Source: a virus
Length of the DNA: 24,352 nucleotides
Strand: one strand, 5' to 3'
IMG/VR virus record: IMGVR_UViG_3300010970_000183
Span: 1 to 24,352 of that record
Part shown: positions 1-17,500 of the stretch, piece after piece
How positions within the stretch are numbered: position 1 is the first letter of the stretch
Layout of the letters: every line of letters starts with the position of its first letter
Position numbers and translations under genes: made by a program
The notes under the pieces: model-generated
What the model was told of the DNA's origin: nothing
Databases searched by the model: none
What the model saw: the letters and a program-made list of their open reading frames with translations, nothing else

Positions 1-1520
1 CTGTGAACATCCCAGCAGACCCTGCAGTCGTAACTCTGAACGTAGACCACAACCGCGAGGAACCTGTAGGCCGTGCAACTGAGCTCACTGAGACTGCTAC
101 AGGCATCGTAGGTACCTTCAAGATTGCTCAGACTGAAGAGGGAGACCAGCTCCTCGCAGAGATCGCGGACGGCACTCGCGCCAAGCTTTCAGCTGAGGTA
201 AAGAATGTAGTTATCCGAGCTCGTAAAGCTGTATCAGGCTCGCTCTTCGGTGCAGCCGTAGTTGCTCAGGGAGCTTTCCCCTCCGCTGCTCTCCTCGCAG
301 AGTTCGCTGAGGACACTGACCCACAAGAGGAAGAGGAGACCGTGGCAGACGACACGACACTCGAAGCACAAATTCTCGACGTAGTCCCCGACCCCGAGGG
401 CAACACCGAGGAAATTATCGTCGATGACCTGCCCGAGCAGGTTATTGTCGATGTAGTAAACCCTGTGGACGGCACCGTAACCCCTACGGTATTCGTCCCA
501 GAAACCCAACCCAACACACAAGGAGATAACATGGGCGCAGCAACTGCACCTGAGACCCTACAGGCTCACAAGGCTGCGCCTGTATCCGAGGGCCTCAACA
601 CCGTAATCAAGAACCTCAGCGACTCAGCCAAGACTGGTGCTCGCTCGATGTTCGCAGAAATCGCTAAGCGCGATGACGCTCAGGCTGTCACCTCGCTCTT
701 CGCAGCTCTCGAAGACATCAAATACGATGGCGTCGGCTCTGTAGGCGTAAACACTGCTCAGCCTGCATGGCTGGGCGAGCTCTGGGGTGGCAAGTCCTAC
801 CAGCGCAAGTACATCCCACTCATTGGCTCTGGAGCTCTTACCTCTCTCACCATGGAAGCATGGAAGTGGAACGTAAAGCCATCCGTAGCTGAATGGGCTG
901 GTAACAAGAGTGCAGTCCCATCGAACGAACCTTCGACTACTCCAGTCACCGTAAACGGTGTCCGCTACGCCGGAGCCCACGATTGGTCTAGAGAATTTCG
1001 GGATTTTGGGCGCACTGATGTAATCGAGAGCGCATTGCGACTCATGACTGAGTCCTACGCTATGGTCACTGACATTGCAACCATCGAGGGACTCCTCGCA
1101 GGCGCTACTGACGTAGTCGCAGGCTCTGCTACCACTCAGGTAGCTTGGAACCGCATCATGGATGGTATCGAGGCAGTTATCGACGTAGCTACTCCTACCT
1201 TCGCAGTAGTTGCTCAGGACCTGTACCGCGAGCTGGTCATGACCACCTCAAACGACAGCCTGGCTTACCTGAACGCATCACTGGGCCTCGAGTCCGGTAC
1301 CGCTGCAGGTTTCCAGATTATCCCCTCGAGCGAACTCGCAGACGGAAACGTCCTCGTTGGATCGCGCGAAGCTGCAACCTCCTACGAGCTCGGTGGCTCG
1401 CCTATCCGCGTAGAGGCTGAGGCCATCTCCGTAGGTGGCTTCGACATCGGTCTCTTCGGATACCACGCAGTACACGTTGCAACGCCTCTCGGCCTTGCTC
1501 TTGTGGCACCTGCTGCCTAA
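1..1520 (+). CDS. HK97-type prohead protease fused to major capsid protein, unit A (5' end outside window)
   Basis: This is the C-terminal 500-odd residues of a capsid maturation protease joined in frame to the major capsid protein. The GTG at position 3 is an internal valine codon: it aligns with the valine in GTVDIPSDP, about residue 47 of the unit B copy, so the gene begins upstream of the window. The protease part has the likely catalytic His in NVDHNREEPVGR and the likely Ser in RAKLSAEVKN, the layout expected of the S78 prohead protease family. A long acidic linker rich in Asp, Glu and Val follows, which could act as a scaffold or delta-like domain. The capsid part begins near MGAATAPETLQ. 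The unit B homologue is highly similar. Fusion of protease and capsid is known in some phages. The capsid fold is inferred from gene order and overall resemblance. Confidence 0.85.
   Translation, partial: VNIPADPAVVTLNVDHNREEPVGRATELTETATGIVGTFKIAQTEEGDQLLAEIADGTRAKLSAEVKNVVIRARKAVSGSLFGAAVVAQGAFPSAALLAEFAEDTDPQEEEETVADDTTLEAQILDVVPDPEGNTEEIIVDDLPEQVIVDVVNPVDGTVTPTVFVPETQPNTQGDNMGAATAPETLQAHKAAPVSEGLNTVIKNLSDSAKTGARSMFAEIAKRDDAQAVTSLFAALEDIKYDGVGSVGVNTAQPAWLGELWGGKSYQRKYIPLIGSGALTSLTMEAWKWNVKPSVAEWAGNKSAVPSNEPSTTPVTVNGVRYAGAHDWSREFRDFGRTDVIESALRLMTESYAMVTDIATIEGLLAGATDVVAGSATTQVAWNRIMDGIEAVIDVATPTFAVVAQDLYRELVMTTSNDSLAYLNASLGLESGTAAGFQIIPSSELADGNVLVGSREAATSYELGGSPIRVEAEAISVGGFDIGLFGYHAVHVATPLGLALVAPAA
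520..533 (+). promoter_or_regulatory. Internal Shine-Dalgarno and in-frame ATG inside the fusion gene, unit A
   Basis: AAGGAG at 520-525 lies five bases before an in-frame ATG at 531. It is one of the best ribosome binding sites in the window, yet it lies in the middle of an open frame. The same element occurs at the matching place in unit B, so it is conserved. Confidence 0.7.
531..1520 (+). CDS. Nested major capsid protein (internal start), unit A
   Basis: Translation from the internal ATG would give a 329-residue capsid protein lacking the protease and acidic linker, about the size of a mature HK97-fold subunit. The unit B nested product is also exactly 329 residues, whereas the linker just before the ATG differs in length between the units. 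This suggests that the product boundary is under selection. Internal starts that adjust head-protein ratios are established (lambda C/Nu3), but here the nested product would be the capsid protein itself. That this start is used is inferred from the ribosome binding site. The alternative is that the fusion is made and cut by its own protease. Confidence 0.6.
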   Translation: MGAATAPETLQAHKAAPVSEGLNTVIKNLSDSAKTGARSMFAEIAKRDDAQAVTSLFAALEDIKYDGVGSVGVNTAQPAWLGELWGGKSYQRKYIPLIGSGALTSLTMEAWKWNVKPSVAEWAGNKSAVPSNEPSTTPVTVNGVRYAGAHDWSREFRDFGRTDVIESALRLMTESYAMVTDIATIEGLLAGATDVVAGSATTQVAWNRIMDGIEAVIDVATPTFAVVAQDLYRELVMTTSNDSLAYLNASLGLESGTAAGFQIIPSSELADGNVLVGSREAATSYELGGSPIRVEAEAISVGGFDIGLFGYHAVHVATPLGLALVAPAA

Positions 1521-1530
1521 GTAACTCCAT

Positions 1531-1570
1531 GAGAGGGGGCCAGTCCCTACCCCTGCGGCGGTCCCCTCTC
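1531..1570 (+). other. Hairpin after the capsid gene, unit A
   Basis: GAGAGGGG at 1531-1538 pairs with CCCCTCTC at 1563-1570. The stem extends inward with a G-T pair, C-G and C-G, to about 11 pairs. The loop holds TACCCCTGCGG, which unit B shares. No T-run follows, so a classical intrinsic terminator is doubtful. A partial terminator, RNA processing site or mRNA stabiliser for the abundant capsid message fits as well. Confidence 0.6.
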
Positions 1571-1598
1571 TCCCCCTCACACTTGAAAGGAAGCCCAC

Positions 1599-2237
1599 AT
1601 GGCTATTATCCCCGTCATTGACCTGGGCTCCCTATGGGTAGGAGACGTTCCCTTCTCTCCCACACGTGCAGACTTCGTAGACGAAGTAGGCGCTCCCGTC
1701 CAAATTTCTGAATATAACGCCTGGACAGCCATCATGCTGGGCCCAGATTTTACTGAGCTGGGCACACTCACCGGCACTGGACACGGACAGCACCTAGAGT
1801 TCACTTGGCCCACAGAGAGCATCCTCGAGCTTCCTGGACGCCACCAGATTATCGTGACCTTCACCGATACTCTCGGCGTAACCGTCCAGACTGAGCCCTT
1901 CAGCTTCGTAGTCCAGGAAGTAGACGGCTGGCTCACCCTCGAGCAGGCACGCTCACAGTGGGCAGACGCTCCACTAGACGACGTCTTCCTCGCCCAAATT
2001 CTCGACGCTGCTAAAGTGCAGTGCATCGCATACGCTCCAGCTCTCCTCCTGGGCGCTGTAGTCCCTGTGAACTACCTCCACGCGCAGCTTATGCAGGCCC
2101 GTGCACTGTATCAGTCAGTCATCGCTAACCAGCAGGATAACGTAGGCGTAGACGGCTTCCAGGTCCGCGTGTTTCCTCTAGATTTCACCATCCGTGCTCT
2201 GCTCCGTCCTAAAAAGGCTTTCGGAGGAATGTACTGA
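1599..2237 (+). CDS. Head-to-tail connector with N-terminal Ig-like domain, unit A
   Basis: A 212-residue protein immediately after the capsid gene, where siphoviruses of actinobacteria encode the head-tail adaptor. Residues 1 to about 108 look like a beta-sandwich (alternating hydrophobic strands ending in FSFVVQEVDG). The remainder begins DGWLTLEQARSQWAD and contains a helical segment ending in VFPLDFTIRALLRPKK, which resembles actinophage connector proteins. The start ATG follows GAAAGGA with good spacing. The stop TGA overlaps the ATG of the next gene (TGATG), so the two are translationally coupled. The C-terminal half is much better conserved between the units than the N-terminal half, which fits an exposed N-terminal domain. 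Confidence 0.65.
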   Translation: MAIIPVIDLGSLWVGDVPFSPTRADFVDEVGAPVQISEYNAWTAIMLGPDFTELGTLTGTGHGQHLEFTWPTESILELPGRHQIIVTFTDTLGVTVQTEPFSFVVQEVDGWLTLEQARSQWADAPLDDVFLAQILDAAKVQCIAYAPALLLGAVVPVNYLHAQLMQARALYQSVIANQQDNVGVDGFQVRVFPLDFTIRALLRPKKAFGGMY

Positions 2238-2605
2238 TGTCAGTCCGTAGTGAGCTCGCAGCTGCACTGAAGCCGCTGCTCCCTGCATCGGTGAAAATCA
2301 TCGACGTGCCACGATCTATAGACGGCATGGAAGCTAAGCGTCCAGTAGTCCTCCTGTACCGTGAAAGCCGCGCTAAAGCTCCTAACGCCATGGGCGACTA
2401 CTTCGACACCTTCGCGCTGTACGTCGTAACTCCAGGCGTAGACGTACGTCGCTCAGAGGATGCTCTAGACGATGCACTGGATGCTGTCGTAGACGCTCTA
2501 GACCAAATCAAGTGGCTGCAGTGGACTAGCGCCGAGCGCTCAATCTTCGGAGACAATCAGGCTCCGGCTTATAAAATAACCCTGACCATCGTATACAACA
2601 AGTAA
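2237..2605 (+). CDS. Tail terminator protein, unit A
   Basis: A 122-residue protein starting MSVRSELAAALKPLLP and ending AYKITLTIVYNK. This pattern, with a central DALDDALDAVVDAL helix, resembles actinophage tail terminator proteins, which cap the tail tube and join it to the head. It lies directly before the major tail protein, the usual place for a terminator. Its ATG overlaps the upstream TGA. The unit B copy has the same length and is nearly identical in protein despite many silent changes. Confidence 0.65.
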   Translation: MSVRSELAAALKPLLPASVKIIDVPRSIDGMEAKRPVVLLYRESRAKAPNAMGDYFDTFALYVVTPGVDVRRSEDALDDALDAVVDALDQIKWLQWTSAERSIFGDNQAPAYKITLTIVYNK

Positions 2606-2615
2606 GGATAACCAA

Positions 2616-3026
2616 ATGGCACAGATTGCTGTTCAGCCTATCTACCTGAAGGACTGTGTCCTCTCGGTGGCTGGGTCTGATTTTGAAAAGGCAGTTAGCT
2701 CTGTAAGCTTCACCCCTTCGGTAACTACCGCTACCTTCAAGGGACTTGAGCCTACTGCAGTGTTCACGAACGTAGGAAGCTCTACCTGGATGGTAGACAT
2801 CGCTTACGCTCAGGACTGGGAGACCACCGGCTCTCTGTCTGCATACCTCTTCGCTAACGAAGGCGCAGAAGTTACTCTGACCTTCGAGCCCGTAAACGGC
2901 GGCTCTTCATGGAGTGCAGACGTAATCATCGTTCCTGGTGCCGTAGGTGGCGCTGTAGACAGCTACGCAGTAGCTACCGTCTCACTCCCTGTACAGGGAC
3001 GCCCCACCTTCACCCCTGCAGTATAG
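2616..3026 (+). CDS. Major tail tube protein, unit A
   Basis: A 136-residue, beta-rich acidic protein (MAQIAVQPIYLKDCVL..., ending QGRPTFTPAV) that follows AAGGATAACC. Size, composition and position between terminator and tape measure fit the tube subunit of a small siphovirus. The unit B protein is the same length, with scattered substitutions mostly in the first two thirds and an identical last 30 residues. Assignment rests on synteny and general character more than on a diagnostic motif. Confidence 0.65.
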   Translation: MAQIAVQPIYLKDCVLSVAGSDFEKAVSSVSFTPSVTTATFKGLEPTAVFTNVGSSTWMVDIAYAQDWETTGSLSAYLFANEGAEVTLTFEPVNGGSSWSADVIIVPGAVGGAVDSYAVATVSLPVQGRPTFTPAV

Positions 3027-3039
3027 GTAGGAGCCTCCC

Positions 3040-3552
3040 GTGGGCGCAATAATCTGGGAATCGAAAGAACTCCAGGCCACTATCCTCGCTTTGAAGATAG
3101 TTGGAAAGGACCTTCGTAAGGAAATCCTAAAGCGCACACGGGAGCTCATCCTAAAAGACTGGGACAGTGCAGTAGCTGATGAGATCAGTACCGTAGGTGG
3201 AGACATCTACGCTACTCGTCTCACTATGCGAAACACCAGGGTAAAAGTAGGTACTCAAGGCTTTACCCTGCAGGCTGCTACACGTGGAACTAAAGCAACG
3301 TCTGGGGGGCTCATCTCCTCCAAGCACTACTATCTTGCTGAGTTCGGTGCAGATAAAAAGGTAGTGCCAGTAAACGGTAGACGTGGAGCCACAAGCTACC
3401 AATATAAGCGAACAGTAAACACCGGCTTTCAGCGACGCGTCAAAAATGGGCGCTACGCTTTCAAGGCCGGAGGTAAGATTATGAACAGGGCCCTAGCGCT
3501 CTACACACAGACCTGTATACAGATGGTCTACGAAGCTTTCGAGAGGAAATAA
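3040..3552 (+). CDS. Basic tail/neck-completion protein, possibly HK97 gp10-like, unit A
   Basis: A 170-residue lysine- and arginine-rich protein with a GTG start after GAGCCTCCC. The segment GGLISSKHYYLAEFGADKK is reminiscent of the (Y)A..vEfGt element in HK97 gp10-type proteins, but gp10 homologues normally precede the major tail protein, so this may instead be a minor tail protein. It occupies the place where tail assembly chaperones usually sit, but I see no second frame suggesting a programmed frameshift. The boundary of the exact inter-unit repeat lies inside this gene: from codon 111 onward the DNA matches unit B exactly. Confidence 0.4.
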   Translation: MGAIIWESKELQATILALKIVGKDLRKEILKRTRELILKDWDSAVADEISTVGGDIYATRLTMRNTRVKVGTQGFTLQAATRGTKATSGGLISSKHYYLAEFGADKKVVPVNGRRGATSYQYKRTVNTGFQRRVKNGRYAFKAGGKIMNRALALYTQTCIQMVYEAFERK

Positions 3553-3557
3553 CGCTT

Positions 3558-4946
3558 ATGGCTGACGCCGGCATTAACATGAGCGCCGATATTGACCCGA
3601 AACCCTTTATAGCCGGTATCGACAATATGGGCGAAGCCCTCGAAGACCTCCAAAAAGAGGTCGAAGACGTCCAAAAAGACGGTGATAAGAGCCTCGAAAA
3701 GCTTGAAAAGAGCTTCGCAGAGGTCGCAAAAGCCTCTCGTAACGCCGGTGATGACGTCCGAAAAGGGCTTGGAGACGGCACAAAACGGGCTGGAAAAGAG
3801 GCTGAAGGGGCTCTAGACGAGTTCAAGAGCGAAGCAAACAGCACCGCTAAAGAGTCTGCAGCATCATTTGATGGCTCTGCAGAGTCGATTGTGGACTCTT
3901 TTCAAGAGATCGCAGCTAATGCGTTCCAAGGTTTCGGCGCAGCCGGTGCAGTAGCTGGTTTAGCCCTCGCAGCCGGTATTGGTATCGCTACGGCAGCATT
4001 TCAGCAATCTGAAGAGGAAGCTCAAAAGGCTAAAGAGCGCATAGGTGAGCTCGGTATAGCGATGATTGACGCCGGTACAGACGGCTCTGTGCCCCTCGAA
4101 AACATCACCGAGAACCTCAAAAACATTGTCACTAACAGCGAAGACGCGGTCAAGGGCTTCAAGGATATTAGTCAGGCATCTAAAACTGCAGGTACAGACG
4201 CTGCAGCCATTGCCATGGCGTATGCAGGTAATGAAGACGCTATCGACGGGCAGATGAAAGCCCTCGAAGACCTCATCGACACTCAGCAAGAGGAAGTCGA
4301 TAAGGCAGCCGAGCATGGCTCACGTTTCGCAGCTATTTCAGACGCCAAACTCAAGGCTTTACAGCTTCAACAATCAGACCTCAAAAAGGTACAGGAAGAG
4401 ACTGAAGCTGCAGCCGAAATTGAGCAGGCATGGCTCGCCTCTGGCGGTGCAGAAATACAGGCTAAAGCCGACGCCGTAGGGCTTATAAACGACGCATACG
4501 ATGAAGTCGTCGGGAGCGTCACCGATTTCGTAAACTCAGAGACTGGCATCCTCGACGTTGAAGCCTATCTAGCAGCCATTGACGCACGCTCTAAGGCTCT
4601 GGAAGACTACCAAACTAACTTAGCTAGTGCCGGGCTCTCTACGGAGCAGAAAGACGCCCTCAACGCCATGGGTGTCGAAGCTGCATCTGCATGGCTTGCC
4701 GGTTATCAGTCAGCAACTCCAGAGCAGCAACAAAAGCTGAAGCAATCACTCACAAACGCTGCTAGTGAAAGCTCTGGCGTGGCTCGCAAAACCATTGACG
4801 ACGCTTTCAAAAAGCCTGTAGACGCTACAGTGAAAGCTATTGCAGATACTGCAAGTGCACGCCGAGACCTAGACAACCTCATCGAAGCTCGCACGGCAAT
4901 CATTAGGGTCGATTTCAGAGACCGAGAAGGGCGACCCATAGGATAA
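3558..4946 (+). CDS. Tape measure protein, unit A
   Basis: A 462-residue, Ala/Glu/Lys-rich, largely helical protein and the longest gene of the tail module. Residues 25-110 have the charge pattern of a coiled coil (EALEDLQKEVEDVQ). A hydrophobic stretch lies at about 125-148 (GFGAAGAVAGLALAAGIGIA), a common feature of tape measures thought to aid membrane passage of DNA. A second helical region covers roughly 225-290. With the known rule of about 0.15 nm per residue, this predicts a tail near 70 nm, very short. It starts after AGAGGAAATAACG, and its TAA overlaps the next ATG. Confidence 0.85.
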   Translation: MADAGINMSADIDPKPFIAGIDNMGEALEDLQKEVEDVQKDGDKSLEKLEKSFAEVAKASRNAGDDVRKGLGDGTKRAGKEAEGALDEFKSEANSTAKESAASFDGSAESIVDSFQEIAANAFQGFGAAGAVAGLALAAGIGIATAAFQQSEEEAQKAKERIGELGIAMIDAGTDGSVPLENITENLKNIVTNSEDAVKGFKDISQASKTAGTDAAAIAMAYAGNEDAIDGQMKALEDLIDTQQEEVDKAAEHGSRFAAISDAKLKALQLQQSDLKKVQEETEAAAEIEQAWLASGGAEIQAKADAVGLINDAYDEVVGSVTDFVNSETGILDVEAYLAAIDARSKALEDYQTNLASAGLSTEQKDALNAMGVEAASAWLAGYQSATPEQQQKLKQSLTNAASESSGVARKTIDDAFKKPVDATVKAIADTASARRDLDNLIEARTAIIRVDFRDREGRPIG

Positions 4947-5299
4947 TGACTACAGTCACTACTAGCTCAGGCGCATCATTTACCCCAAAAGTACGTTACA
5001 CAGCAGGGGACACCTACCCAACACGTAACAAAATCTATGACCTACTCGGCGGAGATGTAGCCGTCACATTCGGCGCAATGCCAAGACGTACCGGCACTTT
5101 CGATTTCATGTTCGAGGATGAGCTTTCGGCTTTCACCGCATACCTAATCATGCGAGACGGCTACGTCATGCAAATCATGGACGTGGACGACATCGGTGCA
5201 AGCCCTATGAACTTCGTGCTCTCTGGCGACATGACTCGCACATGGGATGCTGAAACTAATACTTGGACGGTCTCACTAGACTTTCAAGAGGTAGCATGA
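4946..5299 (+). CDS. Minor tail protein (distal tail-like), unit A
   Basis: A 117-residue protein that starts within the stop of the tape measure (TAATG) and ends in an ATGA overlap with the next gene, so three tail genes are coupled. It contains GDVAVTFGAMPRRTGTFDFM and ends TWTVSLDFQEVA, a beta-rich pattern like short tail-tip proteins that follow tape measures. Position supports a distal tail or tip role. No catalytic motif is visible. Confidence 0.5.
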   Translation: MTTVTTSSGASFTPKVRYTAGDTYPTRNKIYDLLGGDVAVTFGAMPRRTGTFDFMFEDELSAFTAYLIMRDGYVMQIMDVDDIGASPMNFVLSGDMTRTWDAETNTWTVSLDFQEVA

Positions 5300-6531
5300 G
5301 CCTCCCACTGTCTAAACACGTAGCCATAGTTAACTCAACTACCGGCTATGAAAATATGTCCACCATTGACATCGACATCCGCATCGAAGAAACGTGGAGC
5401 CCATACATACAGGGCACACTCACATTTGCAGAAAACTACGTATTAGACCCACGCGCAGGCGACCGGCTCACTATTCTCTTGCAGCAAGAGTTTGGCGCAA
5501 TGCTGCACCCTAGAGACCTCACTAACAGCATCCCCACGGGCTTAGTCTCTGACTACACTGCAGCCTTCACCCCTATGAAGCCTCGCACAATCACCTCTAC
5601 ATACGTGAAATCTTGGAACATTTTTGGCACTGCAGAGCCCATCTCATACTTGACTGCAGGCATAGGCGGAGCAATGGCAGCCTATACTGCAGCCTTCACC
5701 TATGTTTACGATGTCACCCGATACCTCGCAGGCAGTGGAAACCTAAACCCTCCACAGCCCACGGTCTTCTCTGGAGACTTAGGTATCCGCTCCGTCGTCT
5801 ACAATCAGCTCGACCAAACTTACACAGTCTCAGTATCTTCAGACGAAGCCCTCCTCCAAGATTATGCATGGATCTCAGCTACGCCATACACTCCAGCGAC
5901 CACAGACGTCGCTACGCTCACCAATTACGTCTTAGGCAAGATAGGCGCATCGTTAGCCACTGGCAACGCAACGGGAACCTATGACAACACCGTAGTAAAA
6001 TGGCTCCCCGGACAGTCCGGCTGGGACTTCATCAACCCCATTATCCAAGCATCCGATTTGGTGCTCTACTGTGACGAAGGCAGAAATTGGCGGCTCGTAC
6101 CATCCACGGCAACAACTGGCAGCCTCACACTCGACGACACATCCAACATTATTGAGCTCACAACATCCATCGACATTGCACGCGACTATTTCGACTCGTG
6201 TGTCGTCCAATACTCTTGGTATAACGGCACAGCGCAGCAAGTCGCCTACGACATTTATGCCCCCGTCGGCAGTGTCAAAACTAAGAATGTACAAATCTCA
6301 GACACGCCATATCCCGGCACTGGTCTCGCTTATGCACTAACTCAGCGAGCATTGACTCGTAGCGAAATGTTTGAGTTGAAAGCAATCTCCAACTATGACG
6401 CTCGCCCTAGGCAAGAGCTCACTGTGAACGTCACAGACACTGCAACAAAATTAGCCGTAATCTCTTCGATTGCTTGGAGCCTCCCGGCTGATACAATGAA
6501 TATCAACATCCGAAACCTAGTAGAGGTATAA
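5296..6531 (+). CDS. Tail tip/hub minor tail protein, unit A
   Basis: A 411-residue beta-rich protein. The frame is open further upstream, but the ATG at 5296 overlaps the previous stop as ATGA, like most junctions here, and gives the sensible N-terminus MSLPLSKHVAIVNS. It has the size and position of the hub (Tal or gp27-like) protein that binds the end of the tape measure: an early strand region, a central segment with WLPGQSGWDFINPIIQASD, and a C-terminus ending MNINIRNLVEV. The pattern W..L..... followed by paired strands at the end is common in hub proteins of actinophages. Confidence 0.6.
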   Translation: MSLPLSKHVAIVNSTTGYENMSTIDIDIRIEETWSPYIQGTLTFAENYVLDPRAGDRLTILLQQEFGAMLHPRDLTNSIPTGLVSDYTAAFTPMKPRTITSTYVKSWNIFGTAEPISYLTAGIGGAMAAYTAAFTYVYDVTRYLAGSGNLNPPQPTVFSGDLGIRSVVYNQLDQTYTVSVSSDEALLQDYAWISATPYTPATTDVATLTNYVLGKIGASLATGNATGTYDNTVVKWLPGQSGWDFINPIIQASDLVLYCDEGRNWRLVPSTATTGSLTLDDTSNIIELTTSIDIARDYFDSCVVQYSWYNGTAQQVAYDIYAPVGSVKTKNVQISDTPYPGTGLAYALTQRALTRSEMFELKAISNYDARPRQELTVNVTDTATKLAVISSIAWSLPADTMNINIRNLVEV

Positions 6532-6533
6532 CA

Positions 6534-7154
6534 ATGGCAACAGGCTATCTAGACGCTAACGGCATTTGGCAGTATGGCGAAGATGACAGTGACGCGAACT
6601 TCAGTTCGTTACTGAACCGTCTCGCCTCTTCGACGTCTGACGTTGTCGCTAACCCTACCGTTTCGGGCAATATGCGACTAACAAACGTGAACGATGCTTC
6701 AACTACTTCGACAGACCACGCGTTTCAAATTGGCGCATCCGCTGGAACTAATCTTCGTATTGACAATAACGAAATCTTGGTCGCAAACAACGGTGCTGCA
6801 GCGACTCTGAACATAAACCCAAACGCAGATATTTCTATGTCTGGAAGCTCCAACACGGTCACAATGAACGGTCGCTGGATAGCAGCGCATTACCCTTGGG
6901 CACAGTCCGCCGGTAACATCACTACAAGCACGTCTGCACACGTCACCGTCACATTCCCTGCAAGCCGTTTCTCAGTCGGACCAAACGTATCTGTAACAAG
7001 CGTTGCAGGCACTAACGCCGTCTGCACGCCCTACGTAGCGACCGTAAACGCCACCGCAATGACTCTAAGCCTCTACACAACTGCAGGGGCTCGTGTAGCT
7101 CAGAATGTTCAGTGGCTTGCCGTACAAATGACCTCAACAACCGCTGCAGGATAG
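6534..7154 (+). CDS. Tail fibre / receptor-binding candidate with lectin-like C-terminus, unit A
   Basis: A 206-residue protein. The N-terminus MATGYLDANGIWQYGEDD looks like the attachment end of small actinophage minor tail proteins. The middle (about 40-115) is Asn/Ser/Thr-rich with repeating short strands, as in fibre shafts. Residues ~135-202 (VTFPASRFSVGPNVSVTS to VQWLAVQMTST) resemble the H-type lectin fold seen at the tips of fibres. It is the last structural gene before lysis, so it is the best receptor-binding candidate. The lectin resemblance is my reading and not a search result. Confidence 0.55.
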   Translation: MATGYLDANGIWQYGEDDSDANFSSLLNRLASSTSDVVANPTVSGNMRLTNVNDASTTSTDHAFQIGASAGTNLRIDNNEILVANNGAAATLNINPNADISMSGSSNTVTMNGRWIAAHYPWAQSAGNITTSTSAHVTVTFPASRFSVGPNVSVTSVAGTNAVCTPYVATVNATAMTLSLYTTAGARVAQNVQWLAVQMTSTTAAG

Positions 7155-7161
7155 GACTGAA

Positions 7162-7320
7162 ATGCTCGACTTTATCGTCACTTGCCACACTGAAGGCTGC
7201 GACAACGCAGACATCCCCATCGACATCATCGTCGAGGATGCCGAGCCCATCGTCATCTGCGGCGTATGCTCTGTAACCATCATCGACATCGTGGCAAAAC
7301 CTACACCCAAAAAGAAGTGA
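7162..7320 (+). CDS. Small zinc-ribbon-like protein of the tail-lysis junction, unit A
   Basis: A 52-residue protein, MLDFIVTCHTEGCDNADIP at the start and a lysine tail KPTPKKK at the end. Cys8, Cys13, Cys33 and Cys36 (CHTEGC and CGVC) form two knuckles that could hold one zinc ion. The stop overlaps the GTG start of the lysin (GTGA). It is identical in unit B. Function is unknown; similar small proteins are, as far as I recall, frequent beside minor tail genes of actinophages. Confidence 0.7.
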   Translation: MLDFIVTCHTEGCDNADIPIDIIVEDAEPIVICGVCSVTIIDIVAKPTPKKK

Positions 7321-7949
7321 CCACTCAGCTCGTAAACCCAAACCCCGGCGTGAAAGACTACGCCGGGTTTTGTCTACGCTTCACACAAGCGGTTTACGGA
7401 GCACCAGCACAACACTCAAGCGCATGGGCTGCATGGGAAGCCACAAGCTACAAACACAGCACCGCTGAAAGCATCCCAGCGATCTCAGTCCCAGTATGGT
7501 TTAGCCACTACGGGACATACGGCGAACCCCCCACATACGCAAACTGGGGGCACGTCGTCGCCTACATCCCCGGCACCGGATACCTCTCCAGCCCCGGAGA
7601 AGGCTACGGCTCACAAATCTTTGACAGCATCCAAGCCGTAGAGACCTATTTCAACGCCCATTATGTAGGCTGGAGTGAAGACCTCAACGGTTTACGCATA
7701 GCTGAAGTAACAAATACCCCGACAAATAGTAAAGGCGACACTGAAATGCTCATGATTCACAAGCCCAGCGGAGACGCAAACGTCTACCGTTACGCCGTCT
7801 TCTCTGGCAGTTTCTGGCTCGAGTTCGTCGGGCAAGACGTAGCTAACGGTTTCAGTGCCCAAATCGGTGCAGCATCCGTGAAGGTCACTAACGATTTCTG
7901 GAACGTATGCAAGGCATCTGCACAGGCTGGGGCACGCAATGCCAAATGA
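7317..7949 (+). CDS. Endolysin, CHAP/NlpC-P60-like peptidase, unit A
   Basis: A 210-residue protein. I chose the GTG at 7317 because it overlaps the upstream stop and gives TTQLVNPNPGVKDYAGFCL; the open frame further upstream lies inside the previous gene. Cys19 in YAGFCLRF and His79 in NWGHVVAYIPG fit the Cys-His pair of CHAP-type amidases/peptidases, followed by YVGWSEDLNG, a motif typical of such actinophage lysins. Residues after about 140 are separate and could bind the cell wall. The exact repeat with unit B ends at codon 174, beyond which the C-terminus differs. It would cleave host peptidoglycan at the end of infection. Confidence 0.7.
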   Translation: MTTQLVNPNPGVKDYAGFCLRFTQAVYGAPAQHSSAWAAWEATSYKHSTAESIPAISVPVWFSHYGTYGEPPTYANWGHVVAYIPGTGYLSSPGEGYGSQIFDSIQAVETYFNAHYVGWSEDLNGLRIAEVTNTPTNSKGDTEMLMIHKPSGDANVYRYAVFSGSFWLEFVGQDVANGFSAQIGAASVKVTNDFWNVCKASAQAGARNAK

Positions 7950-8106
7950 GAAAACACGCGCATACATCTACCGCGTACTGCTCGCAGTATCGCCTCTAGT
8001 AGCCTTCTACGGGCTCCTCAGTGCCGACGAGCTCGCTTTATGGCTTGGCGTAGCATCTACCGTGCTCAACATCATGCCAGTGCTGAACACGTCCACGAAA
8101 GAGTGA
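7939..8106 (+). CDS. Holin-like small membrane protein, unit A
   Basis: A 55-residue protein overlapping the lysin end by 11 bases. Two hydrophobic segments, about residues 13-26 (VLLAVSPLVAFYGLL) and 32-50 (ALWLGVASTVLNIMPVL), are joined by a short acidic turn SADEL. The pattern YRVLLAVSPL...YGLLS resembles the two-pass small membrane proteins beside actinophage lysins. Unit B has a very similar 54-residue version. Holin function is inferred from position and topology. Confidence 0.65.
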   Translation: MPNEKTRAYIYRVLLAVSPLVAFYGLLSADELALWLGVASTVLNIMPVLNTSTKE

Positions 8107-8109
8107 CTC

Positions 8110-8316
8110 GTGGCAGACGATACCGCCGTCATAACTTTGCGTGAAGTTTATGACCTTGTGCTGGAGTTGAAGACTGAGATGTCTCCGACTCCGTCAGTGT
8201 TGCGCGATCATGAAGACCGCATCCGTGACTTGGAGCGTAAGGTGTGGTCATATTCTGGACTCTCTGCCATCGCTGCAGTGGTCTTATCTCAGGTTGTTAC
8301 TGCGCTTTTGAAGTAG
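8110..8316 (+). CDS. Coiled-coil plus C-terminal membrane segment protein (second holin candidate), unit A
   Basis: A 68-residue protein with a GTG start three bases after the holin-like gene. Residues 10-45 are charged and helical (LREVYDLVLELKTEM, RDHEDRIRDLERKVW), followed by one membrane segment (LSAIAAVVLSQVVTALL). This is the XhlA-like layout of holin-associated proteins. Unit B carries at this place a different sequence with the same architecture (22986-23222), so the slot is functionally conserved though the gene is not obviously homologous. Confidence 0.55.
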   Translation: MADDTAVITLREVYDLVLELKTEMSPTPSVLRDHEDRIRDLERKVWSYSGLSAIAAVVLSQVVTALLK

Positions 8317-8343
8317 GCGCGACACGCCCGAGATTATCTCCAC

Positions 8344-8373
8344 TTGACAATGCGTTACAACGTAACACATACT
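8344..8373 (+). promoter_or_regulatory. SigA-type early promoter, unit A
   Basis: TTGACA at 8344-8349 and CATACT at 8368-8373 with an 18-base spacer. Both hexamers and the spacer length are kept in unit B, although the spacer bases differ. The spacer holds the inverted repeat GTTAC-AAC-GTAAC (8354-8366), a possible operator, of which only the right half is kept in unit B. It lies before the small early genes. Confidence 0.7.
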
Positions 8374-8390
8374 AGATACATCAAGCACCA

Positions 8391-8405
8391 CCGCCAAACG
8401 AAAGG
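8391..8405 (+). repeat. CGCCAAACGAAAGG leader motif, early operon of unit A
   Basis: CCGCCAAACGAAAGG just before the start of the first early gene, including its ribosome binding site GAAAGG. Near copies precede the ATPase gene (9448-9459) and SSB gene (10539-10554), and an exact copy lies in unit B (23302-23316). Confidence 0.65.
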
Positions 8406-8412
8406 TAACACC

Positions 8413-8601
8413 ATGAAACTAACATTCAACGCCGTAGACATCTTTGATATGGTCGTCGATGAGCAACTCGGACACCAACAGCTCGAAGAGATTGCAAACC
8501 AAATGTATCTCCAGCGACGCGGAGGCGAACTAGCACACCTCTGGCAGTCCGAAGAGTTCACCCAGTCACTCGCAGCACAGTTAGATCTCTTCAACCTATG
8601 A
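8413..8601 (+). CDS. Conserved small early protein of unknown function (62 aa), unit A
   Basis: The frame is open from 8344, but that start would lie on the promoter. The ATG at 8413 follows GAAAGG with seven bases spacing and matches the unit B start. The protein is MKLTFNAVDIFDMVVDEQLG..., mostly helical and acidic, ending LAAQLDLFNL. The unit B homologue has the same length, with five substitutions in 62. I recognise no family. It opens the early operon and its stop overlaps the next start (ATGA). Confidence 0.75.
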   Translation: MKLTFNAVDIFDMVVDEQLGHQQLEEIANQMYLQRRGGELAHLWQSEEFTQSLAAQLDLFNL

Positions 8602-8783
8602 GACTCCAACTCGACTCAGAGACAGACCGCAAACTCAACGATGCCATAAAAGCCGAGCCCAATATGCTCGACGAGCTCTTCAATAAATACCAAGAGTCTG
8701 ACCACAGCATCGAAGCACTCACCGAACTACTAGCAGCCAAATACCGAGCCATTCTCAAAGGACAAGTTGAATATGAAGAATAG
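8598..8783 (+). CDS. Conserved small early protein of unknown function (61 aa), unit A
   Basis: MRLQLDSETDRKLNDAIKAEP... is a helical, charged protein overlapping its upstream neighbour by four bases and the next gene by eleven. The central SDHSIEALTELLAAKY is well conserved in unit B. No catalytic residues stand out. Its size and helix content would suit a small regulator or host-takeover factor, but nothing in the sequence proves this. Confidence 0.7.
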   Translation: MRLQLDSETDRKLNDAIKAEPNMLDELFNKYQESDHSIEALTELLAAKYRAILKGQVEYEE

Positions 8784-8907
8784 AAGCATCCGCATCAGCG
8801 AAGACCTCCTCTTCGCCTTGCAGCTCATCGCAGAGCAAGAAGACCGCAGCGTATCCGACTGCATACGTCAAGCCATCAAACTCTATGCAGGGCAGATGCT
8901 CAAATGA
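8773..8907 (+). CDS. Ribbon-helix-helix (CopG/MetJ-like) micro-regulator, unit A
   Basis: A 44-residue gene missed by length cut-offs. RSIRISEDLLFALQLIAEQE reads as a DNA-contacting strand plus helix 1, then DRSVSDCIRQAIKLY as turn and helix 2, closely matching the RHH pattern (RI.lpeel...L..lA...g.S.se.IR.AI..Y). RHH proteins bind operators as dimers. The inverted repeat in the promoter at 8354-8366 is a plausible target. Unit B encodes a homologue of 43 residues with about ten differences. It overlaps both neighbours. Confidence 0.75.
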   Translation: MKNRSIRISEDLLFALQLIAEQEDRSVSDCIRQAIKLYAGQMLK

Positions 8908-9020
8908 TGGCAGTGCTATGCGAAAACCATAAATACCTTTGGGGTAGATTACCCCTCGACCACATCATCGACTTCGTGGCCTTCGTAGGCTGCACAACCT
9001 GCTACACAGATAGGGACTAA
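8904..9020 (+). CDS. CxxH/CxxC zinc-knuckle microprotein, unit A
   Basis: A 38-residue gene starting ATGATG inside the stop of the RHH gene. MMAVLCENHKYLWGRLPLD opens it, and a later CTTC pair gives C-x2-H and C-x2-C, a likely single zinc site. Unit B keeps all four ligands (CENH and CTNC) while neighbouring residues vary, which supports both that it is a gene and that the ligands matter. Function unknown. Confidence 0.65.
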   Translation: MMAVLCENHKYLWGRLPLDHIIDFVAFVGCTTCYTDRD

Positions 9021-9023
9021 ATC

Positions 9024-9404
9024 ATGGCATGGAATAACAGCGACTATGTAGACGTCGCAGCACGCGTTAGAGAGTTCCACGAGAAGCATCCAGAAGGCTC
9101 ACTCCAGACAGTCAGCATTGACTTCCAAGAAGTCGCCGGACAGATGCTCGTGATCTATACCGCTGCAGCTTATCGCTCACCTGAAGACCCTCGCCCCGGC
9201 ATCGCTATGGCCTCCGAGCCTTTCCCCGGTAAAACCAACTTCACCCGTGATAGTGAAGTCATGAACGCAGAGACCTCAGCATGGGGACGTGCCATAATCG
9301 CAGCGGACGGTAGTATCGTCACCAAGAAGATAGCCTCACAGCAAGAAGTAGCTAACAGGCAGACCGCAGAGCCATGGGCTCCGCCTACTAAGACGGAATG
9401 GTAG
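9024..9404 (+). CDS. Conserved actinophage early protein, possibly recombination-related, unit A
   Basis: A 126-residue protein. YVDVAARVREFHEKHPEGSL is followed by a beta section (VIYTAAAYRSPED), then FTRDSEVMNAETSAWGRAI and a GSIVTKKIASQQEVANR tail. I recognise the overall pattern (PG...TR.SE.MNAETSAWGRA) as one found widely in actinophage genomes next to recombination or replication genes. The conserved ETSAWGRA block recalls, weakly, ERF-type annealing proteins. It lies just before the RecA-like ATPase. Unit B has a closely similar protein with divergent ends. Confidence 0.55.
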   Translation: MAWNNSDYVDVAARVREFHEKHPEGSLQTVSIDFQEVAGQMLVIYTAAAYRSPEDPRPGIAMASEPFPGKTNFTRDSEVMNAETSAWGRAIIAADGSIVTKKIASQQEVANRQTAEPWAPPTKTEW

Positions 9405-9409
9405 CGAAA

Positions 9410-9440
9410 AGCCCTAGGGAGTAACACCTCACCTAGGGCT
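9410..9440 (+). terminator. Strong hairpin, possible terminator or attenuator, unit A
   Basis: AGCCCTAGG (9410-9418) pairs perfectly with CCTAGGGCT (9432-9440). Inside, GAG and CTC add three pairs with one bulged A. CTCTCG follows instead of a T-run. It lies five bases after a stop codon, between the early block and the ATPase. A left arm of similar type (AGGCCCTGAGG) follows the same gene in unit B. Confidence 0.5.
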
Positions 9441-9469
9441 CTCTCGTCGCCAAACGAAACGCCGAAACC

Positions 9470-9487
9470 ATGCAACGGCTTAACTGA
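9470..9487 (+). CDS. Five-codon leader minicistron before the RecA-like ATPase (possible)
   Basis: ATG CAA CGG CTT AAC TGA follows the leader motif CGCCAAACGAAA (9448-9459) and the sequence GAAACC, just as real starts do in this phage. It is in frame with the ATPase ATG at 9500 but separated by its TGA. GAAAG at 9486-9490 would serve the second start. Translation through it could couple or tune ATPase synthesis. Expression is not provable from sequence. Confidence 0.3.
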   Translation: MQRLN

Positions 9488-9499
9488 AAGTATACCCTA

Positions 9500-10402
9500 A
9501 TGGACGCATTTACAGCCTTCAACGTCACACCTGCAGACCAGCAACAACTGCACGACTTCTTTCCAGACCTCTACGAAGCTCCAGTCTTCTACGACACCGA
9601 GCAACTCCTAGACTCAGACCCTAACGACACCCTCGACACGGTATTCCTGCAGCGTAACGACGGCGTGCACGCAATCTACCCCGGCTCCCACGTTGCCCTC
9701 TACGGTGAACCCGGCTCCGGTAAGACCATGCTGGCAAAGTTCGCCACCATGCAAGCACTCAACGCAGGATACAAAGTCGCACACATCGACATCGACGACA
9801 ACCGCAAAGAGATCGTTGCACACGACGTCCACAAGTTCGGAGCACACCGTGACAAGATGCTCGCACAGTGGCGACTAGCCCAACCCGACTCTATAGACCG
9901 CCTCAACAGCCTCTGGGAGCGTCTCATAGCCGACGAGTACAGCCTCGTGATAGTAGACAGCATGGCAAGCTTAGAAGGCCTTACAAGCGCAGATGCAAAC
10001 ATGGGGCTCGACTTCGTGCAGCGCATATATCTGCCATACATCAAACGCCTCATGAACGCAGGGTGTGCCGTGATCTCTATCGACCACACAGGCAAAGACC
10101 GTGAACGTAAGGGTGCCATGGGTAGCACGCAGAAGCTCGCTAAGTCAGACCTAGCCATCCACGTCGTACTCCCAGAGTCCGGAGAAGGCCTCGTCCCCGG
10201 CGAACTAGGCACAGTAGCCCTATACATAGATAAAGACCGCTACGGCGTTACAAAGGCAAACAGCCAACTGCGTGAATACCGTGCAGGTCACATGAGAAGC
10301 TTCTGGGGCACCTTCACCATCCCAGCCACAGGTCTACACCAAGCCAACATCCAAGCACCAAGCAAAAACGCCACCAACAAAGTGCCCTACAACTTTAGAT
10401 AA
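9500..10402 (+). CDS. RecA-like/RepA-type AAA ATPase (replicative helicase or recombinase)
   Basis: A 300-residue protein of the RecA-fold ATPases, most like the RepA/AAA_25 group. Walker A is GEPGSGKT at 69-76 and Walker B is LVIVDS at 149-154. The signature AVISIDHTGKD (190-200), followed by a GAMGSTQKLAKSDLAI stretch, is typical of RepA-like hexameric helicases. It is the only replication motor in the unit, with no primase or polymerase visible, so the phage must borrow the host replisome. A repeat- and hairpin-rich gap follows. The start at 9500 has GAAAG nine bases upstream. Confidence 0.75.
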   Translation: MDAFTAFNVTPADQQQLHDFFPDLYEAPVFYDTEQLLDSDPNDTLDTVFLQRNDGVHAIYPGSHVALYGEPGSGKTMLAKFATMQALNAGYKVAHIDIDDNRKEIVAHDVHKFGAHRDKMLAQWRLAQPDSIDRLNSLWERLIADEYSLVIVDSMASLEGLTSADANMGLDFVQRIYLPYIKRLMNAGCAVISIDHTGKDRERKGAMGSTQKLAKSDLAIHVVLPESGEGLVPGELGTVALYIDKDRYGVTKANSQLREYRAGHMRSFWGTFTIPATGLHQANIQAPSKNATNKVPYNFR

Positions 10403-10418
10403 AACACGGCGCGTCGAT

Positions 10419-10448
10419 TTGACAGCCCAAAAGTCGTGTATATATAGT
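10419..10448 (+). promoter_or_regulatory. SigA-type promoter before ssb
   Basis: A perfect TTGACA at 10419-10424 is followed by TATAGT at 10443-10448 (spacer 18), or TATATA at 10441-10446 (spacer 16). It is the best promoter in the window. Transcription would cross the hairpin below and enter ssb, RusA and the downstream micro-genes. Confidence 0.75.
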
Positions 10449-10527
10449 CTTCCTTACATGAAGTCTTCACAGTCTTCCTAGCGAGTGCCTCTAAGCACTC
10501 GCAACGGGAAGGAAGGGAAGTCTTCCT
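10446..10527 (+). repeat. AGTCTTC direct repeats with embedded hairpin: candidate origin or leader
   Basis: AGTCTTC occurs at 10446, 10462, 10471 and 10519 (three of them extended to AGTCTTCC). A perfect 8-pair hairpin GCGAGTGC-ctctaa-GCACTCGC lies at 10481-10502, followed by the purine-rich GGGAAGGAAGGGAAG. The 158-base gap 10403-10560 is the longest noncoding stretch in unit A. Iteron-like repeats beside a RepA-like gene could mark a replication origin. They could equally be regulator sites or a structured leader for ssb. Confidence 0.45.
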
Positions 10528-10538
10528 ATAACACACAA

Positions 10539-10554
10539 CCGCCAAACAAAGGAG
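10539..10554 (+). repeat. Leader motif before ssb
   Basis: CCGCCAAACAAAGGAG, the ssb version of the shared early leader. It contains the strong ribosome binding site AAAGGAG before the ATG at 10561. Confidence 0.6.
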
Positions 10555-10560
10555 AAAACC

Positions 10561-10917
10561 ATGGCGTTAATCAAGATAGAGTCCGCTGAAGTACTGCGCC
10601 ACGTTGGAAGCAACGGCGCATTTGCCGTTGGTGAATACATCACCACAAAAACAGGTGCATCATTCCAGAAGCAGTACACGATCTGGGCAACCGGCACCGA
10701 AGCCCCACCCGTGGGAGCTATCGTCTCAGTCATTGGTCAGCTAGGCATGAAGATGCGTGAATATGCTGCACCTTCCGGCATGAAGCAGGCCATTGACGTG
10801 AGCGTGAATGAGCCTGAAGTTACCGTCATGGGACAGCCCAAGCCTGCTACCGTGGAAGAGACCGCTGCAGCCATCCAAGACATCGCAGCATCCACAGGCA
10901 AGGAGCTCCCCTTCTAA
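10561..10917 (+). CDS. ssb: Single-stranded DNA-binding protein
   Basis: A 118-residue protein that should coat single-stranded phage DNA during replication. The OB-fold-like part covers residues 1 to about 90 (YITTKTGASFQKQYTIWATG, then VGAIVSVIGQLGMKMREY). The protein ends GKELPF, matching the hydrophobic-acidic tail with final Pro-Phe by which SSB proteins recruit partners. It is shorter than most bacterial SSBs (150-180), as usual in phages. Strong AAAGGAG lies upstream. Its TAA overlaps the next start (TAATG). Confidence 0.75.
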   Translation: MALIKIESAEVLRHVGSNGAFAVGEYITTKTGASFQKQYTIWATGTEAPPVGAIVSVIGQLGMKMREYAAPSGMKQAIDVSVNEPEVTVMGQPKPATVEETAAAIQDIAASTGKELPF

Positions 10918-11159
10918 TGACAACCGCAAAGAAGCCCACCACCCCATCGGTGGCGACACTCACCAAGAAGCTCAAAGCTGCAGAGGCAGAAGTAGCAAAG
11001 CTGGAAGAGCTCGTCTTCAAGCTAAATGAGCAATTCGCTAATGAGCTCGCTAACTACGGCAATGAGCAATACGGCTTAGGCCTAGATCAAGGCCGTGCAG
11101 AGATGGGTGCAGCTTTCGAAGCACAGTCACGCATCCAACGCTGGATGTACAAGGCCTAA
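10917..11159 (+). CDS. Small coiled-coil protein of unknown function
   Basis: An 80-residue protein overlapping ssb by one base and followed after three bases by RusA. A basic N-terminus (MTTAKKPTTPSVATLTKKLK) leads into a heptad-like segment AEAEVAKLEELVFKLNEQFA at about 24-43, then an Asn/Tyr/Gly-rich part. Being locked between SSB and RusA suggests a role in DNA metabolism, perhaps as an accessory or packaging subunit. I recognise no family. Confidence 0.6.
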   Translation: MTTAKKPTTPSVATLTKKLKAAEAEVAKLEELVFKLNEQFANELANYGNEQYGLGLDQGRAEMGAAFEAQSRIQRWMYKA

Positions 11160-11162
11160 CCC

Positions 11163-11552
11163 ATGTATGCCATCGTGTACAGTGTCACAGGTCTACCCGT
11201 CACTCAAGGCTCTAAAGCCATCTCACGCTCGGGACGTATGTACGAAACCGGCAAAGGATGGGCTGCATGGCGTAAAGCCATCAAAGAAGCCACAGAGACA
11301 CAGGTAGAACTAACCGACACTGTACTCGGTGGCGTTAGGGTAAGCCTCACCTTCCGCTTCCCACGACCTGCAAAGCCTAAGTACGACTACCCCCTCAAAG
11401 ACTTAGACAAGCTATGCAGAGCAGTACTCGATGGCATGAGCACATCACATGGCGGAGGCATCATCGAGGATGACAAGCACGTCGTCTACCTCACCGCCTA
11501 CAAGGAATACCATGAACACCCCGGCGTCATCATCCGCATTGACCCAGCATAA
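11163..11552 (+). CDS. rusA: RusA-like Holliday junction resolvase
   Basis: A 129-residue nuclease expected to cut branched recombination or replication intermediates before packaging. The N-terminus LPVTQGSKA is the usual RusA opening (P..qgs...), FRFPRPAKPK follows, then the acidic centre PLKDLDKLCRAVLDGM (Asp80, Asp82, Asp90), IIEDDKHVVYL (Asp103/104) and the closing Lys in TAYKEY. Length is typical. The TAA overlaps a further in-frame ATG. Confidence 0.8.
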   Translation: MYAIVYSVTGLPVTQGSKAISRSGRMYETGKGWAAWRKAIKEATETQVELTDTVLGGVRVSLTFRFPRPAKPKYDYPLKDLDKLCRAVLDGMSTSHGGGIIEDDKHVVYLTAYKEYHEHPGVIIRIDPA

Positions 11553-11590
11553 TGAACTACCAACCACGCCACGCGAAAAGGAATAGACCA

Positions 11591-11704
11591 ATGGAACGAC
11601 TACACACAACCATCCGACTCATCATCTGGACATCCATCGTCATAGTATCCATGCTCCTAGTGGACTGGATAGGTAGAGAGATCGTGCTAAACCTGCCATG
11701 GTAG
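11591..11704 (+). CDS. Single-pass membrane microprotein
   Basis: A 37-residue gene. The frame is open from an ATG at 11552 overlapping the RusA stop, but AAAAGGA lies about seven bases before the ATG at 11591, which I prefer. MERLHTTIR is followed by a hydrophobic helix LIIWTSIVIVSMLLVDWI and a short tail. It could be a membrane-acting host modulator or superinfection factor. Function unknown. Its 3' end overlaps the next gene by seven bases. Confidence 0.5.
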   Translation: MERLHTTIRLIIWTSIVIVSMLLVDWIGREIVLNLPW

Positions 11705-11796
11705 CCATCAAACTAGACGAGCCATGCATCGACTGTGGAAAGACAACAGCGTGCTATGGCTGCGTCATGGACTTATACAGGTCAGACGATGAGTAA
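11698..11796 (+). CDS. Zinc-knuckle microprotein 1 (CxxC...CxxC)
   Basis: A 32-residue gene: MVAIKLDEPCIDCGKTTACY and then GC, giving CIDC and CYGC pairs nine residues apart, followed by an acidic tail. It overlaps both neighbours. Two CxxC pairs in 32 residues are hard to explain by chance and suggest a single-zinc fold. Role unknown. Confidence 0.5.
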   Translation: MVAIKLDEPCIDCGKTTACYGCVMDLYRSDDE

Positions 11797-11887
11797 TCTA
11801 CCAATCTGCTATGTATGCCAGAAGCCCAAGGCAATCATGCAGACAGACTGGATAGGTGACATATGTTGGTGGTGTAACAACCAATGA
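11789..11887 (+). CDS. Zinc-knuckle microprotein 2 (CxxC...CxxC)
   Basis: A second 32-residue gene in another frame, overlapping the first by eight bases and the HNH start by four (ATGA). CYVC near residue 7 and CWWC near residue 27 flank QKPKAIMQTDWIGDI. It is similar in design but not clearly in sequence to the first. Position just before HNH and terminase hints at packaging or DNA binding. Confidence 0.5.
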   Translation: MSNLPICYVCQKPKAIMQTDWIGDICWWCNNQ

Positions 11888-12156
11888 GCCAACACCATAA
11901 AGCAGCGAAGTGGAGCAGTAGCCGTGTCAGCAAAGCAAGAGCCAACATCCGAGCACAACTCCCTCTTCCATGTGTTGAATGTGGTGGAGCAGTTATGCCA
12001 GACGACCCGTTCGATGTCGGACATCTTCAGCCACTCAGTCAAGGTGGAAATGTTGCAGAGTATGGCGCATCTCATCGACGCTGCAATCGCGCTGCAGGTG
12101 GACGAATGGGAGCAGCAATAGTGAACAGGCAACGCAAACAAACAAGACATTGGTAA
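11884..12156 (+). CDS. HNH endonuclease of the packaging module
   Basis: A 90-residue HNH nuclease. CVEC at 30-33, then FDVGHLQPL with His47, SQGGN with Asn56 and SHRRCN with His64/Asn68 form the HNH core. Genes of this type next to the large terminase (HK97 gp74 is the studied case) help cut DNA for packaging. Free-standing homing endonucleases are less likely given the overlapping, in-operon position. It starts in the stop of the previous micro-gene and ends four bases before the terminase ATG. Confidence 0.8.
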   Translation: MSQHHKAAKWSSSRVSKARANIRAQLPLPCVECGGAVMPDDPFDVGHLQPLSQGGNVAEYGASHRRCNRAAGGRMGAAIVNRQRKQTRHW

Positions 12157-12160
12157 CGAA

Positions 12161-13672: not shown

Positions 13673-13675
13673 GTG

Positions 13676-13693
13676 TGGTATAGAATAGGCGCG
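13676..13693 (+). promoter_or_regulatory. Possible leaderless promoter at the portal start
   Basis: TGGTATAGAAT (13676-13686) looks like an extended -10, with TAGAAT ending six bases before the GTG at 13693, the spacing typical of leaderless actinobacterial transcripts. No good -35 and no ribosome binding site are seen. Confidence 0.35.
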
Positions 13694-14736
13694 TGGGTAT
13701 TCGTAACGCTTTGAGACTTATTGAGTCCGGCGACCAACTGCATGAGCGTAGCCTTACGCCGAACCAAGGCATCGTCTCGCCATGGGTACAGTCGCAGTTG
13801 TCGCAGGTAGTGTGGTCAGACGTCTTTGGTAGTGAAGCTAACATCGTTTCACGCGCCGATGCTATGACCATTCCAGCCGTTGCGAAGGCTCGCCAAATCT
13901 TGGTGAGCACCATCGCACGCTTCCCCCTCATCGCTCTCGACTCTAACGACCAGCCTGTGAGCGTCCCATGGCTGCAGGCAACCGACGGCGAAGTCTCCCC
14001 ATGGCACCGTATGGCTTGGACAATCGACGATCTAGTCATGTCGGGCTGGTCTCTTTGGGGTGTCGAACGTGACGCAGCCGGCGAAATCATCAAGGCAGAC
14101 CGTTGCCCAATCGAACGCTGACACATAAACAACGATGGAAACATCGTAATCGACGACCAAATCGCAGAAGCTGACAGCGTCATCCTCATCCCTGCACCAT
14201 TCGAGGGTCTCCTCAAGGTCGCATCTCGTACCCTAAAGGGTGGCGCAAAGCTTGAAAATAGCTGGGTTGGTAAGGCAACTAACCCCATCCCGGCCATCGA
14301 ACTACACGCCACAACCGATGACCCCCTCGAACTGGACGAAGTGCAGGCACTCGTACAGGCTTGGGCAGACGCTCGCTCCGATGTAAATGGTGCAATCGCA
14401 TTTACACCTCACAACATTGAGGCACGCGCTCACGGTAACGCAGAGCCTTCTCTGCTTATCGAGGGTCGCAATTTCCTACGCATTGACGTCGGAGCGTTTC
14501 TTGGTATCCCTGCAGCTCTCATGGATGCATCCCTCTCCACTGCCTCGCTGACGTACAGCACGCAGGAAGGGCAGCGTAATGAGTTTGCAGACTTCACTCT
14601 CCCCTACTGGATGGAGCCCATTCAGCAACGTCTAAGCCTCGATGACGTAGTGCCCTCCGGCATCCGCATCCGCTTTGACATGAGCGACCTTTTCACCACC
14701 ACGCCAAGCCCCACAAGCCCACCTGCAGAGGATTAA
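13693..14736 (+). pseudogene. Portal protein interrupted by an in-frame TGA
   Basis: The frame runs 348 codons, with a single TGA at 14119-14121 (codon 143). Before it, MTIPAVAKARQILVSTIARF at 58-77 matches the (V)PAV..ar.ilv.tia..pl element of HK97-type portals. After it, the frame stays clean and continues HINNDGNIVIDD to PSPTSPPAED. RCPIER-stop-HINNDG is where portals commonly have a Trp (pier.W.id..G.i), so the change is probably TGG to TGA. No frameshift or other damage is seen. Either this genome is defective, a sequencing error occurred, or the stop is read through. The fragment after the stop has a GTG at 14341 in frame. The protein is short for a portal but fits a minimal phage. The TAA ends three bases before the capsid ATG. 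Confidence 0.8.
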
Positions 14737-14739
14737 ACA

Positions 14740-16404: not shown

Positions 16405-16415
16405 GCAATAAATTC

Positions 16416-16456
16416 GAGAGGGGAGTCCACCCGTACCCCTGCGGTGCTCCCCTCTC
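16416..16456 (+). other. Hairpin after the capsid gene, unit B
   Basis: GAGAGGGGAG (16416-16425) pairs perfectly with CTCCCCTCTC (16447-16456). Compared with unit A, the inner pairs changed on both arms while pairing was kept. The loop repeats TACCCCTGCGG. The paired changes support a functional RNA structure. Confidence 0.65.
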
Positions 16457-17490: not shown

Positions 17491-17500
17491 GGATAACCTA

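Follow-up and report, generated by a model that had tools for sequence, protein, structure and literature searches.

A single environmental contig was found to contain parts of two clearly different small bacterial viruses, and it is likely that these are two co-occurring actinobacteriophage species of ~15 kb that share a recently exchanged tail-lysis block, through which the assembler joined their genomes. The window analysed, which is the whole of one IMG/VR record of 24,352 bp classed as linear, carries this block, designated X, twice. Recent homologous exchange of the genes for the tape measure, distal tail, tip, fibre and lysin proteins is the best explanation of X.

When the two copies of X were aligned base by base (offset 14885), positions 3370-7837 and 18255-22722 were found to be identical over 4,468 bp, with zero mismatches and zero gaps, as had been claimed from the letters of the window alone. 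In the adjoining DNA, identity was 82, 79, 83, 74 and 75% in the five 100-bp windows beside the left border and 76% over the 270 bp beside the right border; the earlier estimate of ~85% was slightly too high. Third positions differed in 54 of the 109 codons to the left of the border and in none inside X. At 19% divergence, the log10 of the probability of zero differences over 4,468 bp is about -409. The pattern by which a module exchange was defined was thus observed, namely, a block with 100% identity over 4468 bp, flanks with 74-83% identity and sharp borders. Both borders lie inside genes and are in frame, in agreement with the sequence-only reading: position 3370 is the start of codon 111 of the gene beginning at 3040, and position 7837 falls within codon 174 of the lysin gene, assuming a GTG start at 7317.

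Two further features of X were considered. A foreign composition was rejected, as the GC content of X (0.516) is normal among the tail modules of the family (0.50-0.53). As a recombination motif common to both borders, one 9-bp word (TCGGTGCAG) was found in the two 101-bp border windows and was presumed to be a chance match.

Self-comparison of the window demonstrated that one unit occurs twice with an offset of 14,885 bp and that X is the sole repeat at k of 31 or more. The record is best read as N-left, X, the M loop, X and N-right, where M and N are the two phages (Table 1). This layout follows from the length of the loop plus X, 14,885 bp, equal to a single genome of the family, and from the circular relatives L016 (15,163 bp) and L008 (14,736 bp), whose direct terminal repeats of 127 and 55 bp, respectively, match typical assembler k-mer lengths. 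According to the CheckV paper, odd-numbered terminal repeats are assembler k-mers left on circular templates (PMC8116208). M is best read as a complete, circular-assembling phage of 14,885 bp, roughly of the type of the 15-kb actinophages of Arthrobacter, Rhodococcus and Gordonia, and N as a second, partly recovered species. Two diverged genomes had been proposed previously as copy 1 and copy 2, side by side. Two diverged phages are indeed present, but they are not divided in this way: because 7838-18254 is one continuous stretch, the genomes are M (loop plus X) and N (1-3369, 22723-24352 and X).

Table 1. Coordinates of the segments of the record and of genes discussed in the text.
Feature	Position	Strand	Basis or content
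N-left	1..3369	+	74-83% identical to M copy near border; tree positions unlike M; contains 3' part of capsid-protease fusion, adaptor, 2237-2605 protein, major tail protein, codons 1-110 of basic tail protein
X copy 1, tail-lysis block	3370..7837	+	base-by-base identity to 18255-22722
M loop (phage M except X)	7838..18254	+	loop + X = 14885 bp; contains right flank, RecA-fold ATPase, RusA, HNH, terminase, portal, capsid, left tail genes
X copy 2	18255..22722	+	base-by-base identity to copy 1
N-right, right flank of N	22723..24352	+	next to border, 76% identical to 7838-8109 in a global alignment
Basic tail protein, left border at codon 111	3040..3552	+	82-91% aa identity to L014, L015, L013
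Tape measure protein (in X)	3558..4946	+	tblastn match to proteins annotated as tape measure in Arthrobacter phages Whytu and Corgi and in Microbacterium phage PensacolaC28
Small tail protein, possibly distal tail (in X)	4946..5299	+	position; 31-40% aa homologues in relatives
Tail tip/baseplate-like protein (in X)	5263..6531	+	phrog_1887 tail protein, E 3e-5
Tail fibre (in X)	6534..7154	+	phrog_25747; synteny; alignment: N-terminal ~28 aa conserved, remainder variable
Probable endolysin (in X up to codon 174)	7317..7949	+	N-terminal domain homologous to L015 LysM protein; phrog_12298
RecA-fold ATPase, RadB/Sak4/RepA-like	9500..10402	+	TIGR02237 1.5e-6, PF13481 3e-9, phrog_124 1e-4
RusA-type Holliday junction resolvase	11163..11552	+	PF05866 4.7e-12
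Terminase large subunit	12161..13672	+	phrog_9 1e-62
Capsid-protease fusion of M	14740..16404	+	phrog_2263 2.5e-67; tblastn match to proteins annotated as 'major capsid and protease fusion protein'

Among the genes of X, the small tail protein gave no match in family searches. The protein encoded across the right border is probably a lysin, as judged from synteny and from the homology of its N-terminal domain to the L015 protein of the same locus, which ends in LysM. CHAP+LysM proteins were found in L014 and L008 shortly downstream of their fibre genes. No relatives of the tip and lysin were found in viral_contigs, and a PDB sequence search with the lysin gave no match. The predicted structures of the lysin (pLDDT 45) and fibre (pLDDT 34) were too poor and were set aside. 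The fibre was recognised by the synteny of its gene, by its conserved N-terminus and variable C-terminus, and by its match to phrog_25747. It is plausible that M and N have a common host specificity or receptor. A search for hosts with the capsid protein against GTDB genomes found none.

To the right of X, small genes occupy the same position in M (8110-8316) and N (22986-23222) and have no detectable nucleotide similarity. That of M is common to L014 and L015 (91-94% amino acid identity); for that of N, neither a counterpart in M nor any relative was found.

The genes flanking X were found to place M and N apart. In AU tests, a sister relationship of M and N was rejected in the trees of the capsid (p 5e-5), major tail protein (1.6e-6) and adaptor (7e-5), in which M grouped with L013/L014 and N with L007 or L015. 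The 330 bp beside the left border separated the two phages less strongly (AU p 0.04). For the terminase and capsid of the main relatives (L014, L015, L013, L008, L006, L009 and L007), amino acid identity was mostly 71-97%, whereas for the tape measure, distal tail and tip proteins it was 26-55%. Additionally, M and N become less similar to L014 and L015 at the nucleotide level from ~130 bp inside the left border. X therefore covers the module that is normally the most variable in this family. No close DNA match was found among phage records.

Other signs of reassortment were observed in the family. The major tail protein gene of N (2616-3026) is 92% identical to that of L015 at the nucleotide level, and the adjacent genes are ~77-81% identical. 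This points to a second exchange, older than that of X, whose borders lie close to the ends of the gene. Exchange is therefore routine in the family, and X stands out only by its length and exactness. The tape measure genes of L014 (5529-8535) and L015 (6150-9231) are 75-83% identical near their start, while the major tail proteins of these two are only about 62-81% identical, so tail modules have been reshuffled in other members of the family as well. In L013 (7208-7377), a contig of 7.4 kb, the tail tip gene joins directly to the 3' part of the terminase gene, without lysis or replication genes, which is either a deletion form or a misjoin.

The origin of the tandem arrangement was also considered. 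For all values of k examined between 21 and 1000, the window had the same k-mer multiset as circular M (14885 bp) plus a linear molecule of N-left, X and N-right. These two structures are indistinguishable by short reads. Because this is the content of a circle and a linear genome sharing X, the tandem form is probably an assembly product. As only one record is involved, the two copies of X are not independent sequence evidence and are probably one assembled consensus used twice. Assemblers would not plausibly collapse a divergence of 15-20% over 4.5 kb. A true difference between M and N of up to a few per cent within X may have been collapsed by the assembler, so that the zero divergence of X may not be literal. 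metaSPAdes, for example, collapses strain bulges (PMC8021871). Repeated-genome contigs in IMG/VR are, according to the CheckV authors, 'probably artifacts of metagenomic assembly' (PMC8116208).

It could be supposed that X belongs to one phage only, the diverged module of N having been lost and the ends of N falsely joined to the X of M. Related genomes linked by shared k-mers can yield chimeric contigs (PMC7299287), and such a hop would likewise give perfect identity. However, an assembler can pass from N into X only where the reads of N continue into X. For a false join, two independent hops would be required, each at an exact match of length k, and self-comparison revealed no exact run of at least 31 bp between M and N outside X. 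The exact runs common to relatives and the outermost 200 bp of X are at most 42 bp on the left and 12 bp on the right. Moreover, both junctions are in frame within functional-looking proteins. Because k-long exact identity would be needed at both borders, a chimeric hop into X, and with it this reading of the record, is unlikely. As a point against the exchange, a search of viral_contigs for the junction pattern found no other record with the right junction, although this search set may lack near-identical records.

Alternatively, as the units of the sequence-only reading imply, two genomes P (1-~12 kb) and Q (~12-24 kb) could lie head to tail, joined at physical ends upstream of the terminase gene, which was considered decidedly unlikely. 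The linear genomes of cultured relatives do start just before the terminase gene (match at 82-87 in PensacolaC28 and BlueFeather). However, region 11400-12400 shares no exact stretch of >36 bp with relatives, so a joint via a conserved end is not obvious. In addition, L014 is mostly closer to the left side of copy 2 and, more weakly, to the right side of copy 1 than to the counterparts of these, as would be the case for a one-genome loop, although mosaicism weakens this test. The exchange of X itself is unaffected if the head-to-tail arrangement holds.

The record could also represent a real molecule, that is, a cointegrate or mixed concatemer formed when M and N, as circles or concatemers, underwent a single crossover within X during co-infection. 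Two circles recombining at X yield exactly this order with the same k-mer content. Nevertheless, this origin is very unlikely, considering that such molecules would need to outnumber monomers in the sample, that the record runs beyond one unit and is not closed, and that the ORF list shows neither an integrase nor host DNA. For the last reason, tandem prophages were rejected as well. That physical M/N cointegrates at X are a natural recombination intermediate of co-infection, by which the family swaps the tape-measure-to-lysin block as one cassette, is a slightly longer shot still.

Vertical inheritance of X with extremely slow evolution is next to impossible: apart from the identity of X, nothing speaks for it, while relatives are 26-55% identical in amino acids across most of the module, about half of the third positions are changed immediately beside X and none within it, M and N do not form a sister pair, and family members with diverged flanks were found to have diverged versions of the module as well.

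Recent exchange of X was therefore preferred, inherited identity being unlikely because the flanking-gene trees reject M and N as sisters and the module varies most among relatives. M and N, 74-83% identical near the borders, would have been present in the same sample, and X would have been gained recently by one phage from the other or by both from a third phage. The likely route is homologous recombination in a co-infected cell, with crossovers in the conserved basic tail gene at the left border and in the 3' end of the lysin gene at the right border, where the reading frames stay intact. Phage recombinases tolerate a divergence of ~12-17% (PMC3945230). As X is longer than short reads, the assembler would have run from N into X, once round circular M, through X again and out into N. 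Short-read assembly, the recombination route, any direction of transfer and the shared receptor are parts of this account that we infer. The previous claim of a recent real exchange thus holds insofar as the clades differ, the block spans the most variable module and a k-mer hop is unlikely, but not as to literal zero divergence or the tandem form, which is probably an assembly join.

Mosaicism of tail modules is known, and the present event is one more case of it, probably brought to light by the assembly join. It resembles the mosaicism by relaxed homologous recombination described by De Paepe et al. in 2014 (PMC3945230) in that the swapped block is bounded by sharp junctions within conserved genes, that the genomes are ~20% diverged and that recombination genes are present (here, RusA and the RecA-fold ATPase). 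That system is known from isolates and prophages, whereas here a single metagenome contig was read from sequence. In Bacillus V4 phages (PMC10674732), combinations of fibre and lysin arise by HGT; as here, fibre and lysin differ among close relatives and the N-terminus of the tail fibre is conserved. In those phages, however, individual genes are replaced; in the present case, two species carry an identical, uninterrupted block that runs from tape measure to lysin.

Cultured phages of 14-17 kb, namely, Arthrobacter cluster AN (Corgi-Whytu type), Rhodococcus RRH1, Gordonia Schiebs and Microbacterium PensacolaC28, are similar to M and N in genome size, terminase, capsid-protease fusion and tape measure homology. 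Because their terminase and capsid are only ~29-35% identical in amino acids to those of the M/N family, the latter is a distant environmental lineage without a cultured host. Like the repeated-genome contigs flagged by CheckV (PMC8116208), the record is ~1.6 times the genome length and has an internal repeat; in contrast to them, its repeated units come from two diverged species, and only X would raise the k-mer frequency.

Provided that the exchange is real, the functions of host recognition and lysis would have been transferred together between two species of environmental phage, so recently that no substitutions remain, and host range in the group would not track the phylogeny of capsid or terminase. 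Recent swaps can themselves make assemblers merge two phage genomes into one record. Therefore, IMG/VR records with repeated units could be screened for recent exchanges rather than merely thrown out.

Several observations were made on other genes of M. When an annealing protein of the Rad52/Red-beta/Erf/Sak type was sought, only the RecA-fold ATPase was found, with weak matches to Sak4/RadB/AAA_25, and its phage matches were primase/helicase-like. The portal gene (13693-14736) contains an in-frame TGA at 14119-14121, where L014 has TGG, and this is either a single-base nonsense change or an assembly or sequencing error. In the terminase frame, a conserved GCTC-T9 tract was found at 12236-12250, and the independent contigs L006 and L015 start (position 1) exactly there. 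This suggests that sequencing or assembly breaks at the homopolymer; possibly, the tract is a slippage site.
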